Positions 7,246 to 35,431 of a DNA stretch of 36,243 nucleotides are shown piece after piece. This DNA is from Campylobacterales bacterium. Lineage in GTDB: Bacteria; Campylobacterota; Campylobacteria; Campylobacterales; Sulfurospirillaceae. The notes beneath the pieces are model-generated. The model did not search any database and was not told the DNA's origin. It worked only from the letters and a program-made list of their open reading frames with translations. How positions within the stretch are numbered: position 1 is the stretch's first letter; the number at the start of each line of letters is the position of its first letter. The translations under genes were made by a program, and so were the position numbers. The DNA lies in NCBI GenBank assembly GCA_024280575.1, contig JAJRPV010000048.1, positions 1 through 36,243 on the forward strand, read 5' to 3'.

Positions 7246-7280
7246 AATTTCCCCTAAATAAAGAACTTGTCACCTATCTA

Positions 7281-7346
7281 ACTGTTTTCTTTATCAGGAA
7301 GTAAATTCCCGATAAATTCATTGCGCTAAAGCTAGACCTTGCAGTC
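7281..7346 (-). repeat. Two-hairpin element, copy A (S10 operon leader)
   Basis: Read on the minus strand: P1 stem GACT/GGTC with loop GCAA (7335-7346), core TAGCTTTAGCGC then GAATTT, P2 stem TTATCGGGAA/TTCCTGATAA with loop TTTAC (7291-7315), then AAAGAAAACAGT. A possible outer helix pairs TCAC..CTAT (around 7351-7361) with ATAGGTGA (7270-7277). The P2 stem differs from the aroC copies by matched changes on both sides. It lies about 36 nt upstream of the rpsJ ATG, inside the predicted leader. Confidence 0.75.
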
Positions 7347-7380
7347 AAAAATAGCTAGTGATAACTTAATAAGGAACGAG

Positions 7381-10418: not shown

Positions 10419-11102
10419 TCATTGATTGTCTCCTTTTAGGGCTTCTAGTGCCAGTTTTGCAGAGGCTTGCTGGGCTTCTTTTTTACTTTTGCCTATCGCT
10501 CTTGAAAATTCTTTATCTTGTATAATAACTGCCATCTCAAACTCTTTTTTATGATCAGGTCCAAAAGATTTTATCAACCTATATTCGGGAGTCTCTCCAA
10601 ATCTAGCTTGTGTTAACTCTTGCAAAGTGGTTTTAAAATCTCTAAAAATTGCTTCCATATCTATAACAGGGTAGGCAATATCCAAAAGATGGATACATAT
10701 TTTTTTTGCTTTTTCCAATACCGCCTCAAGATAAACCGCACCCATCAAAGCCTCAAATGCATTTGAAAGAAGTGAGGATTTTTCTCTTCCTTTATTGTTT
10801 TCTTCTGCCATTGATATAAAGATATTATCCCCTAAATTCAATATATTGGCCAACTTGTAAAAACCTTTTTCACTTACCAAAGATGCTCTGAGTTTTGAAA
10901 GTTCTCCCTCCGCAACATCAGGAAACTTATGGTATAAATACTCTCCTACTATCAAATCCAAAACAGCATCGCCCAAAAACTCCAACCTTTCATTATTGTA
11001 TGGTTTTTTATAACTTTTATGAGGAAGAGCTTCGATTATCAGATTTTGGTCTTTAAACTGATAATCCAAACGCTTTTGTAACAGTTGTAAATATTTATCC
11101 AC
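10419..11102 (-). CDS. rnc: Ribonuclease III
   Basis: 227 residues. The catalytic domain carries the signature [19 protein letters not shown] (E and D residues for the metal site), and the C-terminal third is a dsRNA-binding domain ending [18 protein letters not shown]. It processes rRNA precursors and structured mRNAs. The gene directly follows rnhA and precedes the structured tandem repeats upstream of aroC, which are plausible substrates. Confidence 0.97.
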
Positions 11103-27207: not shown

Positions 27208-28300
27208 TCTTACACTATTAGCAAGCTCAATTGTAATTGTCACAAATTTAGGAGCTGCAAAATTAAACTATACTCCGGCCAATCCTGATAAATATCCTTA
27301 TCCAAGCACGGCAAAAGACAAACAAGGCAATACAACCAATGTTGATGGTGCGAAAATAAGAAAAAATGTAATCACGGTAAAAGAAGTCTATAAATCACAA
27401 ATTAGCGGTAAAAATCATAATTTTGGTGTACCGGCGACAAAAGCAACTTTAAAAGCATGGAATACCGATGTCAGACCAGACGGAAAAGGTTTGCCAAATG
27501 GGAAAATGACCGTAGAAGAAGGTGCTAAAGTATTTAGTGCAAAATGTGCAACTTGTCATGGAGATTTTGGTGAAGGAGTCGATAGATTTCCTGTACTAGC
27601 AGGAGGAATAGGCACATTAAAACTTCATCCAAAAACCGGTGGAGATCCAGGACCTCTTAAGACCATAGGAAGTTATGCTCCTTATATAGCACCATTTTTC
27701 TGGTACATTCAAACTGCCATGCCTCTTTCAGCACCAAAGTCACTTAGTAATAGTCAGGTATATGGAATCTTGGGATATTTGCTTCAGCTAAATGAAATTC
27801 AAGTAAATGGAAAAGATATCGAAGATGATACCGTGATTGATAGAAAATTTATAAAATCTGTTCATCTACCCAATGAAAAAGGTTTTGAGTATAACAACTT
27901 AAGAAAACCAGACACTCACAATACTAGGTGTATGAAAAATTGTATAGATCCGTCAAAAATGACTATCATGCACATAAAAACAGATGCAACACAAGTTAAA
28001 CCTCCATTTGGAGACGGGAGATACTCTTTTAATGATGCAAAGAAAAAAGAGTCTGCCGGAGAAATCGGTAAAACAATCTATGAAAATACATGTGCAGGTT
28101 GTCATGATTCAGGAATAGCCGGAGCTCCAAAGTTTGGAGATAAAGCTGATTGGGCACATGTAAGAGAAGAGAATTTAAAAGATGTGTTTAACCATGCGAT
28201 CAACGGATTTAATGCTATGCCTCCAAAAGGTGGAGACATGTCACTCAAAGATGAAGATGTTAAAAGCACAGTTAAATATATGCTTGAAAAAAGCAAATAG
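27188..28300 (+). CDS. soxD: Cytochrome c subunit SoxD of sulfane dehydrogenase
   Basis: 370 residues with two c-type haem sites, CATCH (about 120) and CAGCH (about 302), and probable Met ligands in TAMPLS and NAMPPKG. A third cysteine pair CMKNC sits between them without a His, perhaps a disulfide. Accepts electrons from SoxC. Start ATG 27188 chosen for its 6-nt spacing from GGGGAGG; the adjacent ATG at 27185 is too close. Overlaps soxC by 20 nt, consistent with coupled synthesis. Confidence 0.93.
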   Translation: MYMSMRNLTLLASSIVIVTNLGAAKLNYTPANPDKYPYPSTAKDKQGNTTNVDGAKIRKNVITVKEVYKSQISGKNHNFGVPATKATLKAWNTDVRPDGKGLPNGKMTVEEGAKVFSAKCATCHGDFGEGVDRFPVLAGGIGTLKLHPKTGGDPGPLKTIGSYAPYIAPFFWYIQTAMPLSAPKSLSNSQVYGILGYLLQLNEIQVNGKDIEDDTVIDRKFIKSVHLPNEKGFEYNNLRKPDTHNTRCMKNCIDPSKMTIMHIKTDATQVKPPFGDGRYSFNDAKKKESAGEIGKTIYENTCAGCHDSGIAGAPKFGDKADWAHVREENLKDVFNHAINGFNAMPPKGGDMSLKDEDVKSTVKYMLEKSK

Positions 28301-28303
28301 TTA

Positions 28304-28371
28304 GACCGAAAGGTTGTGCTTTAGTAGAGCGTGAATTTACTAGGGGCTTTGCCCCTAGTAAAGATGACAAT
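28304..28371 (+). repeat. Two-hairpin element, copy C (before soxX)
   Basis: P1 GACC/GGTT with loop GAAA (28304-28315), core GTGCTTTAGTAGAGC then GTGAATTT, P2 ACTAGGGGC/GCCCCTAGT with loop TTT (28339-28359) flanked by TTT/AAA, then GATGACAAT. It begins 3 nt after the soxD stop and ends 20 nt before the soxX ATG, which has its own AAGGAG. Confidence 0.8.
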
Positions 28372-28391
28372 TAAATAGAAAAGGAGAGAAA

Positions 28392-28760
28392 ATGATAAAT
28401 GCAAAAAAATTATTAGTATTAGCCATTGCAGGTATGCTAGGTGCTACTATAGCTAATGCTACCGGTAATGAGGCTTTAATCAAAGAGGGCAGAAAAGTAT
28501 TTACTACTAAAAAGCTTGGTAACTGTTTGGCTTGCCATGCAGTTCAAGGTGATGCAGGCATACCGCAAACTGGTGATATTGGTCCAAAACTTGCCAATCT
28601 GGATACTTATCCAAAAGAGTATCTATTTAATAAAATATGGAATCCAAACAAAACTGTCCCAGACAGCGTAATGCCTCCAATGGGGAAAAGCCACAAGATA
28701 ACAAGACACCAAGTAGATGCACTTGTAGCATATTTACAGGCAACAACAAAAGCAAAATAG
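28392..28760 (+). CDS. soxX: Cytochrome c SoxX
   Basis: 122 residues: signal peptide (to about residue 23), one haem site CLACH (45-49) and the Met-ligand region DSVMPPMGKS. SoxX pairs with SoxA to form SoxXA, which couples thiosulfate to the SoxY cysteine. It lies between two copies of the two-hairpin element; its own stop codon overlaps a decayed copy. Confidence 0.93.
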   Translation: MINAKKLLVLAIAGMLGATIANATGNEALIKEGRKVFTTKKLGNCLACHAVQGDAGIPQTGDIGPKLANLDTYPKEYLFNKIWNPNKTVPDSVMPPMGKSHKITRHQVDALVAYLQATTKAK

Positions 28761-28796
28761 TAGAGTGTGAATTTTACTTAAACAAAAGATAACAGT
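28758..28796 (+). repeat. Decayed two-hairpin element (D0)
   Basis: Directly at the soxX stop the sequence reads AGTAGAGTGTGAATTT, as in copies C and D, and then TTACTTAAAC followed by AAAAGATAACAGTT, close to the AAAGATGACAAT tail. P1 and the P2 pairing are lost. Confidence 0.5.
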
Positions 28797-28811
28797 TCAG
28801 ATAGAGCTTCT

Positions 28812-28879
28812 CGACACAAGTCGTAGCTTTAGTAGAGTGTGAATTTTATATGAGCTTTGCTCATATAAAAGATGACAAT
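28812..28879 (+). repeat. Two-hairpin element, copy D (before soxY)
   Basis: P1 CGAC/GTCG with loop ACAA (28812-28823), core TAGCTTTAGTAGAG then TGTGAATTT, P2 TATATGAGC/GCTCATATA with loop TTT (28847-28867) flanked by TTT/AAA, then GATGACAAT. Ends 24 nt before the soxY ATG. Confidence 0.8.
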
Positions 28880-28903
28880 AAAATAAAAAAGGGAGAATGA
28901 AAT

Positions 28904-29359
28904 ATGAAAAGAAGAAAATTTATAGGACTCGGTTTCGCGACAATGGCGGTAACTGCATTACAAACAGTAGGCAGTGCAAATATTTTAAAAGATCATCCAA
29001 AGGCATTTATGGATACTAAGCCTGAAGATGCTATAAAAGATATATATGGAACAACAAGCGTGATGAAGGATGACAAAGCATCACTAAAACTTCCAGATAT
29101 CGCAGAAAATGGGGGCGCAGTTCCGGTTACAGTTTCAACAAGCTTGGAAAATGCAAAAACAATGACTCTTATAATAGATGGTAATCCGCACCCACTTGCA
29201 GTAGCATGGGATTTACAAGAAGGTACAATTCCAAAATTTTCAACTAGAATCAAGATGAGAAAAACAGGAAATGTTAGATTAATCGTAGAAGATGCAAACG
29301 GCAAACTACACGAGGCAATCAAACAAGTAAAAGTAACAGTCGGTGGATGTGGTGGTTGA
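28904..29359 (+). CDS. soxY: Sulfur carrier protein SoxY
   Basis: 151 residues. Tat-type leader MKRRKFIGLGF and the carrier C-terminus VGGCGG, whose cysteine (C149) on a flexible arm carries the thiosulfate-derived sulfur through the cycle. Forms a dimer with SoxZ and is exported with it. GGGAG precedes the ATG. Confidence 0.95.
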   Translation: MKRRKFIGLGFATMAVTALQTVGSANILKDHPKAFMDTKPEDAIKDIYGTTSVMKDDKASLKLPDIAENGGAVPVTVSTSLENAKTMTLIIDGNPHPLAVAWDLQEGTIPKFSTRIKMRKTGNVRLIVEDANGKLHEAIKQVKVTVGGCGG

Positions 29360-29408
29360 TACCAACTTTCATATAGAACTTAAATAAACTATGCAAACTC
29401 AAGCCTCT

Positions 29409-29476
29409 AGGCGTAAGCCTTAGCTTCAGTAGCGTGTGAATTTTTCTTGGGCTTTGCCCAAGTAAAAGATGACAAT
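29409..29476 (+). repeat. Two-hairpin element, copy E (before soxZ)
   Basis: P1 AGGC/GCCT with loop GTAA (29409-29420), core TAGCTTCAGTAGCG then TGTGAATTT, P2 CTTGGGC/GCCCAAG with loop TTT (29446-29462) plus an outer TTTT/AAAA, then GATGACAAT. Ends 27 nt before the soxZ ATG. Confidence 0.8.
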
Positions 29477-29503
29477 TAGGTAAAAAATTTAGGAGAAATT
29501 AAA

Positions 29504-29800
29504 ATGGGAATAAAAGCAATAGCAAAAGTAAAAAAAGATATAGCAACAGTTAAATTACTAGTAAAACATCCAATGGCATCAGGAAAAATTGGTGGTGGAA
29601 AAGGTGATCCAAAATATATCAATCATCTAACGGTAAAACACGGAGGAAGAGTCGTGTATGATATGTATCCAACATCAGCCGTATCAAAAAACCCGTATAT
29701 AAAATTTGCATTTAAAGGTGCAAAAAAAGGTGACACAATCACAGTTGAATGGAAAGATAATACCGGAGCGACACAAAAGAAAGACATCAAACTGAAGTAA
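29504..29800 (+). CDS. soxZ: SoxZ, partner of SoxY
   Basis: 98 residues, normal length, with the immunoglobulin-like SoxZ pattern: VKLLVKHPMASG, INHLTVKHGGRVVYD and the C-terminal ITVEWKDNTGATQKKDIKLK. It holds SoxY in the carrier heterodimer and has no signal of its own, exported with SoxY. AGGAG precedes the ATG. Confidence 0.95.
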   Translation: MGIKAIAKVKKDIATVKLLVKHPMASGKIGGGKGDPKYINHLTVKHGGRVVYDMYPTSAVSKNPYIKFAFKGAKKGDTITVEWKDNTGATQKKDIKLK

Positions 29801-29802
29801 AT

Positions 29803-29845
29803 ACCCACAAGGTTATGCTTTTAGAAAAATATATTTGCCTCAAAT
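29803..29845 (+). repeat. Decayed two-hairpin element (G), between soxZ and soxA
   Basis: A P1-like ACC/GGT pair (29803-29813) is followed by TATGCTTTTAG, similar to the core TAGCTTTAG, and then by a weak hairpin ATTTG/CAAAT (29833-29845). The GAATTT and GACA parts are missing. Weaker than the other copies. Confidence 0.35.
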
Positions 29846-29877
29846 CAAATGTATAATTTAACAATAAGGAGAACAAT

Positions 29878-30786
29878 ATGTTGAAAAAACTGATAAAAAT
29901 TGCTACTATTTCGATGATAAGTGGCACTATTATGTTTGCAGCGAATTTTAATGCTCAAGCAGAAAAAGACAGACATGCGTTTGTAAACTATTTTTTAAAG
30001 AAATTTGAAAATCCGGTTGCGAACAGGGCAAAATACTTTCCATATGTACCGATAGAGGAATTGAAAAAGGACTATATATACCCACTTAAATTTGAAGATT
30101 TTAAAAATGGCCCTATGAGTTGGTACAGACCTGCGAAAGAACAGTTTGCGGAGATAAATGATTTTCCTCCATACGAAATACCTCTTGATGACGGAAAAGA
30201 ATTATTTACAAAACCTTTTGCAAACGGAAAAACATATAGTAGTTGTTTTCCAAATCCGGCAATTAAACAAAACTATCCATATTATGATACAAAAAGAGAT
30301 GAAATTGTAACAATCGGTATGGCTGTTAACGAATGTAGAGTTAAAAACGGAGAAAAACCTCTAAAATACGGCAAAGGCGACATTGCTAAAGTAATTGCAT
30401 ATCTTGCAGATAAGTCAAGAGGCCAAAAAATAAATATTAAGATACCAAGTGCAAACGCTGCTAAAGCATATGAAGCTGGTAAAAAACTTTTTTATAAGCA
30501 AAGAGGATATCTAAGCATTAGTTGTAATGAATGTCATGTTCAAAGCGCTGGTAAAAGAATTAGAGCCGAAGCTCTAAGTCCAGCACTTGGATCTACTACT
30601 GAAATGCCTGTTTATCGGCTAAAATGGGGTGGGCTAGGAACACTTCAAAGAAGACTAGTCGGTTGTATTAAAGATACAGGTAGTGAAAAACCAAAAATGC
30701 AAAGCAAGCCAGTAAAAGAGTTGGCATACTTCTTGACATATATGTCAAATGGTATGAAACTTAATGGCCCAGATACAAGAAAGTAA
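29878..30786 (+). CDS. soxA: Cytochrome c subunit SoxA, single-haem form
   Basis: 302 residues with a signal peptide. Only one haem motif remains (CNECH, 216-220); the N-terminal cytochrome domain retains lone cysteines C123 and C153, likely a disulfide instead of a second haem, as in other single-haem SoxA proteins. C263 in VGCIKDTG is the catalytic persulfide cysteine. Catalyses with SoxX the oxidative coupling of thiosulfate to SoxY. Normal SD (AAGGAG) before ATG 29878. Confidence 0.93.
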   Translation: MLKKLIKIATISMISGTIMFAANFNAQAEKDRHAFVNYFLKKFENPVANRAKYFPYVPIEELKKDYIYPLKFEDFKNGPMSWYRPAKEQFAEINDFPPYEIPLDDGKELFTKPFANGKTYSSCFPNPAIKQNYPYYDTKRDEIVTIGMAVNECRVKNGEKPLKYGKGDIAKVIAYLADKSRGQKINIKIPSANAAKAYEAGKKLFYKQRGYLSISCNECHVQSAGKRIRAEALSPALGSTTEMPVYRLKWGGLGTLQRRLVGCIKDTGSEKPKMQSKPVKELAYFLTYMSNGMKLNGPDTRK

Positions 30787-35268: not shown

Positions 35269-35346
35269 ATGAAATATTCTTCGCAAAGTGAAAGCATAAG
35301 TTCGAGGAATTTTTCAGGAATTTACTTCCTAAAAAAGGAGAAATAA
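35269..35346 (+). other. Possible 25-codon leader ORF (MKYSSQSES...)
   Basis: An open frame from ATG 35269 runs through element F1 (RNFSGIYFLKKEK) and stops at TAA 35344-35346. No clear ribosome-binding site precedes it. Near-duplicate of the next frame by tandem duplication (79-nt period). Confidence 0.25.
35280..35345 (+). repeat. Two-hairpin element, copy F1
   Basis: P1 TTCGC/GTGAA with loop AAA (35280-35292), core AGCATAAGTTCGAG then GAATTT, P2 of 11 bp with one C-A mismatch around AGGAA/TTCCT and loop TTTAC (35310-35336), then GGAG. Confidence 0.75.
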
Positions 35347-35347
35347 A

Positions 35348-35431
35348 ATGAAATACTCTATGCAAAGCATAAGCATAAGTTCGAGGAATTTCTTAGGAAT
35401 TTACTTCCTAAGAAAGGAGACATTAATATGA
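35348..35431 (+). CDS. Possible 27-codon leader peptide coupled to the transglutaminase gene
   Basis: ATG 35348 has an excellent ribosome-binding site (AAAAAAGGAG, 7-nt spacing) supplied by element F1. The frame runs through element F2 (SSRNFLGIYFLRKETLI) and ends in ATGA, overlapping the next gene's start. Translation here would unfold F2 and couple to the next gene. No functional peptide is claimed: changes between the two frames alter residues but preserve pairing. Confidence 0.3.
   Translation: MKYSMQSISISSRNFLGIYFLRKETLI
35359..35424 (+). repeat. Two-hairpin element, copy F2
   Basis: P1 TATGC/GCATA with loop AAA (35359-35371), same core as F1, P2 TTTCTTAGGAA/TTCCTAAGAAA with loop TTTAC (35389-35415), then GGAGACATT, which is also the ribosome-binding site of the next gene. 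Both stems differ from F1 by changes that keep pairing. Confidence 0.8.

Follow-up and report, generated by a model that had tools for sequence, protein, structure and literature searches.

Hairpin elements between the sox genes of a Campylobacterales bacterium: probable members of an insertion-polymorphic repeat family located upstream of translation starts

Hairpin elements in the sox gene cluster

Why do similar two-hairpin elements precede several genes of one sox cluster? The window analyzed here, the whole stretch of 36,243 nt of contig JAJRPV010000048.1 (assembly GCA_024280575.1) from a Campylobacterales bacterium, was initially examined in a first-pass annotation, which offered two answers: either the element is being amplified by local duplication, or each gene in the cluster is set separately, perhaps by RNA processing that adjusts subunit stoichiometry. 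Our analysis relies on a covariance model, termed here R1, which, like the consensus fold, was derived from an alignment of 18 copies including those from the sox region and from related genomes. The reading that we favor, and consider probable, is that the sox elements are class 2 copies of an insertion-polymorphic family of ~80-nt units, sense-oriented upstream of translation starts, which would work, if at all, as mRNA structure. The features of the sox region are as follows (gene names from NCBIfam models).

28297-28376, + strand: element C, class 2, before soxX (P1 28304-28315; P2 28336-28362; tail GATGACAATTAAAT); R1 score 86.3 bits, E 5e-15 in its own genome
28392-28760, + strand: soxX (TIGR04485, over cut-off)
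28758-28797, + strand: D0, decayed class 2 remnant at the soxX stop codon, with an intact core and a degenerate P2
28805-28884, + strand: element D, class 2, before soxY (P1 28812-28823; P2 28844-28870)
28904-29359, + strand: soxY (TIGR04488, over cut-off)
29402-29481, + strand: element E, class 2, before soxZ (P1 29408-29421; P2 29441-29467); R1 score 87.0 bits
29504-29800, + strand: soxZ (TIGR04490, over cut-off)
29803-29862, + strand: G, possible decayed copy before soxA
29878-30786, + strand: soxA (TIGR04484, over cut-off)

The placement of C, D and E before soxX, soxY and soxZ, as originally described, is confirmed by R1 scores of 86-97 bits, which are scores on training members, as all three copies belong to the R1 training set; element D is the best R1 match of the genome (96.9 bits). 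The fold of element C is more stable than that of shuffled sequences (z -4.3), and the Shine-Dalgarno (SD) sequence of soxX (AAGGAG, 28381-28386) lies outside the element. The remnant D0 before soxY also stands: positions 28758-28775 are an exact 18-nt copy of the element D core, the alignment beats 1000 out of 1000 shuffles, and there is a weak R1 match (23.5 bits) over 28733-28801. D0 is probably an older tandem unit beside D. The proposed remnant G before soxA fares less well. The soxZ-soxA gap is longer here (77 nt) than in four relatives (30-39 nt) and G resembles other copies with an alignment p of about 0.02, but it has no R1 match and folds no better than shuffles (z +0.33), so that its assignment as a decayed copy is weakly supported. 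The model search also agrees with the absence of the element from the soxCD, soxA-K and soxK-B joints. In two relatives the soxZ-soxA gap (L009:3820-3974, L010:3885-4037) contains another structured insert of ~155 nt, apparently unrelated, with the motifs GGCAGGG..CCCTACTGCC and CGAAAAGTAAGACTTTTCG.

Unit architecture, RNA fold and classes

A unit of ~80 nt comprises a hairpin P1, a conserved linker, a second hairpin P2 and a conserved tail; in the intact sox units, P1 with a four-base loop is followed by the linker CTTTAGTAGMGYGTGAATT, a P2 of up to 12 bp and the tail AAGATGACARTTAAAT. In the 18-copy alignment 90% of the cells pair, 14 of the 20 pairs exhibit compensatory changes, and the covariation score is reached by none of 500 shuffles and is lost when the partners are slid. 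Among the P2 pairs of 195 scored units, G-U outnumbers A-C by 123 to 35 (39 to 3 in class 2). A palindrome maintained at the DNA level would give approximately equal numbers, so that the P2 fold is kept as sense-strand RNA. The notion that the element acts as RNA is thus supported by the G-U bias and the covariation. The possibility that P2 is protein-coding was dropped, as P2 covaries as RNA and the encoded peptide changes along with it.

Comparison of the units reveals three classes, told apart by both flanks of P2. Class 1, which accounts for 71 of 101 distinct units (about 70%), has the arrangement AGTCGCGAGGAATTT - P2 - AAAGGGGACARTTAAATG; class 2, the sox type, has GTAGMGYGTGAATT - P2 - AAGATGACARTTAAAT; and class 3 has GTGCAATGAATTT - P2 - AAAGAAAACARTTAAAT. 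The sox P2 hairpins had been regarded as a subfamily defined by a common tail and by a TTT loop, distinct from a TTTAC-loop subfamily. The common tail (GATGACAAT) is correct, but it marks the genome-wide class 2, which is found also before dnaK, infA, mreB, rpoZ, flgE and gatA, and the loops cannot serve as class markers, because both of them occur in classes 1, 2 and 3. Class 1 units carry their own SD sequence and their arrays end exactly with the gene start codon; units of classes 2 and 3 stop at least 7 nt (mostly 7-36 nt) short of the start codon and are followed by a separate ribosome-binding site. A link of classes 2 and 3 to highly expressed genes was considered and rejected, as the codon adaptation of their genes shows no difference from that of class 1 (p 0.31 and 0.14). 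Outside the sox region, the window contains the following copies.

7276-7353, - strand: class 3 copy (GCAATGAATTT..P2..AAAGAAAACAGTTAGAT) before rpsJ (S10); R1 score 47.6 bits
10179-10415, - strand: three tandem class 1 units between rnc and aroC
35274-35429, + strand: two tandem class 1 units before the gene for a Tat-signal-like protein

In the triple array the last unit ends with ...GGGGACAGTAAAATG on the aroC start codon, while the first, rnc-proximal unit is decayed. The last unit of the double array ends on the start codon of the Tat-signal-like protein and forms a mini-ORF, MKYSMQSISISSRNFLGIYFLRKETLI followed by a stop. The rnc gene that adjoins the triple array (10419-11102, - strand) encodes RNase III, which could cut such hairpins; we found no evidence of a connection.

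Two unusual variants were observed. A few copies of classes 1, 2 and 3 contain within the P2 loop an extra hairpin of ~38 nt (AAGGAAGCATCGCTAACGCGACCGCATTTGCTTG; L075:475-590, L076:1237-1353, L013:2039-2156 and the upstream flank of L031), found at three sites in the genome of the window (termed here G000), at one site in G006, a distant congener with an AroC about 72% identical, and as one near match in the genome G009. It resembles a nested repeat or an extension of P2 common to the classes. In two hybrid units (L094:1645-1719 and L157:636-712), P2 is a TTAAAGAT..ATCTTTAA hairpin. In G009, the atpE-like gene found in L094 has a similar hairpin but no element, as if in L094 the element had merged with a native leader hairpin.

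Distribution of the family and its position at gene starts

R1 finds at least 112 matches in the 2.06-Mb G000 genome, a lower bound from 150 scored candidates. All ten genomes of the genus contain matches (13-102 per genome; copy number is put at 13 in G009 and at about 110 in G006), other genera of the family have fewer, and there are almost none beyond, although R1 was trained on class 2, so that the class 1 counts and the counts in distant genomes are lower bounds. Six G000 contigs (C10, C21, C45, C64, C72, C78) end inside units of the hairpin family; the repeat thus breaks the assembly, which is another reason to consider the copy number a lower bound. The 103 units analyzed in G000, which was sampled locus by locus with gene starts called by simple rules (the metagenome-assembled genomes being fragmented), form 70 arrays, 28 of which hold two or three units head to tail, and some 60 unrelated genes are preceded by the element. 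The sox elements, as part of a genome-wide family of more than 100 copies, are therefore not a sox-specific switch. At the Rfam gathering score only a tRNA is matched in the whole window, relaxed Rfam searches, which covered the sox region and six loci of the family, yielded no credible match at the elements, and no published description was found in the open papers searched; the family thus appears previously unlisted, in that we found neither an Rfam family nor an open paper describing it.

The position of the arrays is far from random. Among the 64 arrays for which a downstream gene could be called, 61 are co-directional with that gene (p 2e-15, a binomial value that overstates independence because the units are related by descent); of the other three, the one before rpoZ reflects a gene-calling error. 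About 40 arrays terminate precisely at the start codon of the next gene, and antisense or convergent positions, which should be harmless, are almost empty.

Class 1 arrays display additional regularities at their left junction. Of 41 arrays, 27 have an ATG there, which in many cases follows a native ribosome-binding site, and bases 4-10, counted from this ATG, match the start of the gene itself better than in permuted pairs (p 0.003), with short exact runs of 3-10 nt. This match is compatible with insertion at the start codon and a short duplication of the target, and many of the left ATGs may derive from older copies. In 22 of 26 class 1 units (and in 4 of 4 in G006) the left ATG stands 80 or 83 nt from the gene ATG, which places the two in a frame in which a mini-ORF of ~27 codons (e.g. 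MKLQKRQLRASVARNFFGIHFRKKGTIK or MKHTEVLLRALVARNFCGIHFRKKGTIV, each followed by a stop) ends with a TGA overlapping the gene ATG; the resulting ATGA is found at the gene start in 41 of 45 class 1 arrays. Tandem junctions with an ATG keep the frame more often (11 of 12) than those without (7 of 15; Fisher p 0.018, counted by hand), a result that is suggestive only, because the units share descent. An ATGA overlap is characteristic of translationally coupled leader ORFs. The class 1 mini-ORF resembles them in that its stop overlaps the gene start, and differs in being part of a repeat dispersed before dozens of unrelated genes. However, the mini-ORF may be a by-product, as it is missing from many class 1 units (about half of those in G000, most in G006, and 7 of 7 in G021). 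The sox copies, which belong to class 2, lack it.

Gain, loss and recurrence of units

The first-pass annotation suggested a comparison with the sox spacers of related species and would have taken a lack of such spacers in close relatives as counting against it. Close relatives do have elements, but some of their gaps lack one. In L009 and L010, two of these relatives, soxD and soxX are separated by 21 nt and soxX and soxY by 18 nt, with no element in between; here and in L012 both gaps hold elements. L013 carries four units ahead of soxX. Between soxY and soxZ, five of six relatives (L009-L013) have an element and L014 has none. At the rnc-aroC junction, units are found here and in three congeners, but they are not the same units; four other congeners have none. 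Among about 30 further genes compared with a low-copy congener most sites are empty in the latter. Judging from this variation among orthologous sites, the sox gaps included, units have been both gained and lost. The element may also affect its upstream neighbors: the gene upstream of pyrB (L082:3281-3361 and the upstream flank) ends with KGTII and a stop, encoded by an element-like tail (AAGGGGACAATAATATGA), and its G009 ortholog ends with GRKDS and a stop. Some upstream genes seem to have exchanged their 3' end for an element tail.

The same genes tend to be occupied in the distant congener G006. There, 18 of 29 arrays precede genes whose G000 orthologs also carry an array, with about 0.9 expected; as part of the G006 sample was picked by the class 3 pattern or by aroC, the count without those loci is about 11 of 20. 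At the shared loci the class mostly agrees, and the similarity of G006 units to G000 units is practically the same for orthologous loci (0.768) as for same-class units at other loci (0.757). The same genes thus bear new sequence, either by conversion among copies or because the same sites are repeatedly refilled. This recurrence is the strongest hint that the element is used.

Relation to known repeats and agents of movement

The main competing explanation, which we consider rather unlikely, is a selfish REP- or MITE-like repeat without benefit to the host: a transposase, perhaps a Y1/HUH protein, would insert it beside start codons, and only sense insertions with a working ribosome-binding site would survive, so that the orientation bias could be a survivor bias. 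The high copy number, the tandem arrays, the insertion polymorphism and decayed copies such as D0 all agree with it, and so do the two Y1_Tnp genes in G000 and the presence of at least one in eight of the ten genomes of the genus. On the other hand, the emptiness of the harmless antisense and convergent positions, the sense-strand G-U bias and the recurrence of the same class at the same genes argue for use. The link to the Y1 transposase is unproven, because no element lies beside either G000 gene, only 1 of 18 congener loci has a match, and the element-bearing genomes G004 and G005 yielded no match to Y1_Tnp. Spread by phages was rejected, as the class 1 and class 2 cores are absent from IMG/VR, where two matches to a shorter core are chance matches in coding sequence.

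REPs are 20-40 bp long, have a tag at one end of a palindrome, form rare head-to-tail dimers, and are located for the most part 3' of genes and in the spaces of unidirectional or convergent gene pairs (PMC3733652). The element resembles REP or GTAG- and CGTC-tagged repeats associated with RAYT (PMC3733652, PMC2817692) in being small, in exceeding 100 copies per genome, in the covariation and G-T pairing of its stems, in forming arrays, and in the occurrence of Y1 transposases in most genomes of the genus. It differs in having ~80 nt and two hairpins, in its head-to-tail, sense-only arrangement at gene 5' ends (61 of 64 arrays upstream of a co-directional gene, about 40 of them ending on its start codon), in that no unit lies near either G000 Y1_Tnp gene (1 of 18 in congeners), and in that GTAG is confined to class 2, about 11 nt from P2, while class 1 has GTCGCGAGG. 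Small MITEs (Correia/NEMIS, ERIC, RUP, YPAL, RPE) mostly have terminal inverted repeats and fold end to end, and cleavage of NEMIS RNA by RNase III has been proposed (PMC2229807). Like them, the element is non-autonomous, insertion-polymorphic (with empty and filled sites at sox, aroC and about 30 further genes), RNA-structured and sometimes endowed with open reading frames, but it lacks terminal inverted repeats, its ends being different (AAGTTTCT.. versus ..GACARTTAAAT). A text search of the MITE review found no mention of start codons or SD sequences (PMC2229807).

Origin of the sox copies

The evidence also bears on the two explanations originally offered for the sox cluster. It is very improbable that the element exists as a sox-specific system, in which RNA processing at each copy sets the subunit stoichiometry gene by gene. 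An intact element is present in three of the four sox gaps of at least 77 nt, strong hairpins could be RNase substrates, and the soxY-soxZ gap is occupied in most close relatives; but the same element precedes some 60 unrelated genes, which makes sox stoichiometry unlikely as its reason for being, and several relatives, with Sox proteins about 75-95% identical, have no element between soxD and soxX or between soxX and soxY.

Even less credible is local tandem duplication inside the operon as the source of C, D and E. The family commonly forms tandem arrays, the remnant D0 beside D is probably such a unit of older date, and the best match of E is D, at only 76% identity. However, C is most similar to the copy before dnaK (81% identity, compared to 69% for D and 65% for E) and D to a copy located on another contig (81%), i.e. 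both are closest to copies elsewhere in the genome and not to each other, and relatives fill different gaps. Recent local duplication is thus unlikely, and the sox copies are better explained by insertion into separate gaps, since these are empty in some close relatives and in others carry as many as four units.

A ligand- or temperature-sensing leader (riboswitch, thermometer or ribosomal-protein leader), suggested by the conserved unpaired linker and tail flanking P2 and by class 3 copies before rpsJ, rplK, rplL and tuf in G000, is equally hard to credit: there is no Rfam match, the SD sequence is not sequestered at sox (for which reason a riboswitch acting in this way was rejected), the P2 sequence varies freely, the downstream genes share no common pathway, and the ribosomal-protein leader interpretation of class 3 fails at flgE and rpoZ of congeners.

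Possible function and implications

The preferred reading, class 2 copies of a mobile family acting at most as mRNA structure, implies little interference with translation at sox. As class 2 units have no start signals and lie upstream of the SD sequence of the gene itself, they should leave initiation largely intact; the predicted accessibility of the SD sequence hardly changes with or without the element, so that no direct effect on initiation is predicted. A promoter or terminator role was rejected, as such sites are no more frequent in the sox region than in shuffles. The sox units would at most be intercistronic mRNA hairpins that shield or separate neighboring messages, possibly with an effect on mRNA stability or processing. 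The most plausible view of them is that of class 2 insertions, either tolerated or retained, on the upstream side of the native ribosome-binding site.

For the family as a whole, the preferred reading is that of a probably mobile, sense-oriented translation-start element of a group of Campylobacterota, acting on mRNA. The element would insert at or beside the start codon, leaving the native start region on its left side, and would rebuild a start region on its right side, so that the gene would still be translated. In about half of the class 1 units the left ATG would open the mini-ORF, and the ATGA overlap would pass on ribosomes from the upstream cistron. We tentatively propose a more far-reaching possibility, namely that of a mobile, RNA-structured translation-start cassette, inserted in sense orientation at start codons, with its own SD sequence and start codon, coupling through the ATGA mini-ORF and classes matched to the start region, spreading by repeated insertion or gene conversion, such that the same genes stay occupied while the sequence turns over.

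Dispersed repeats of bacteria are usually viewed as passengers near gene ends. If the cassette interpretation is true, this family would be a post-transcriptional network built through transposition, and a direct case of a mobile element rewriting translation initiation genome-wide and recurring before the same genes across species. The family also matters for the annotation of these genomes, in which at least 60 genes have start codons and upstream small ORFs that lie within repeats.
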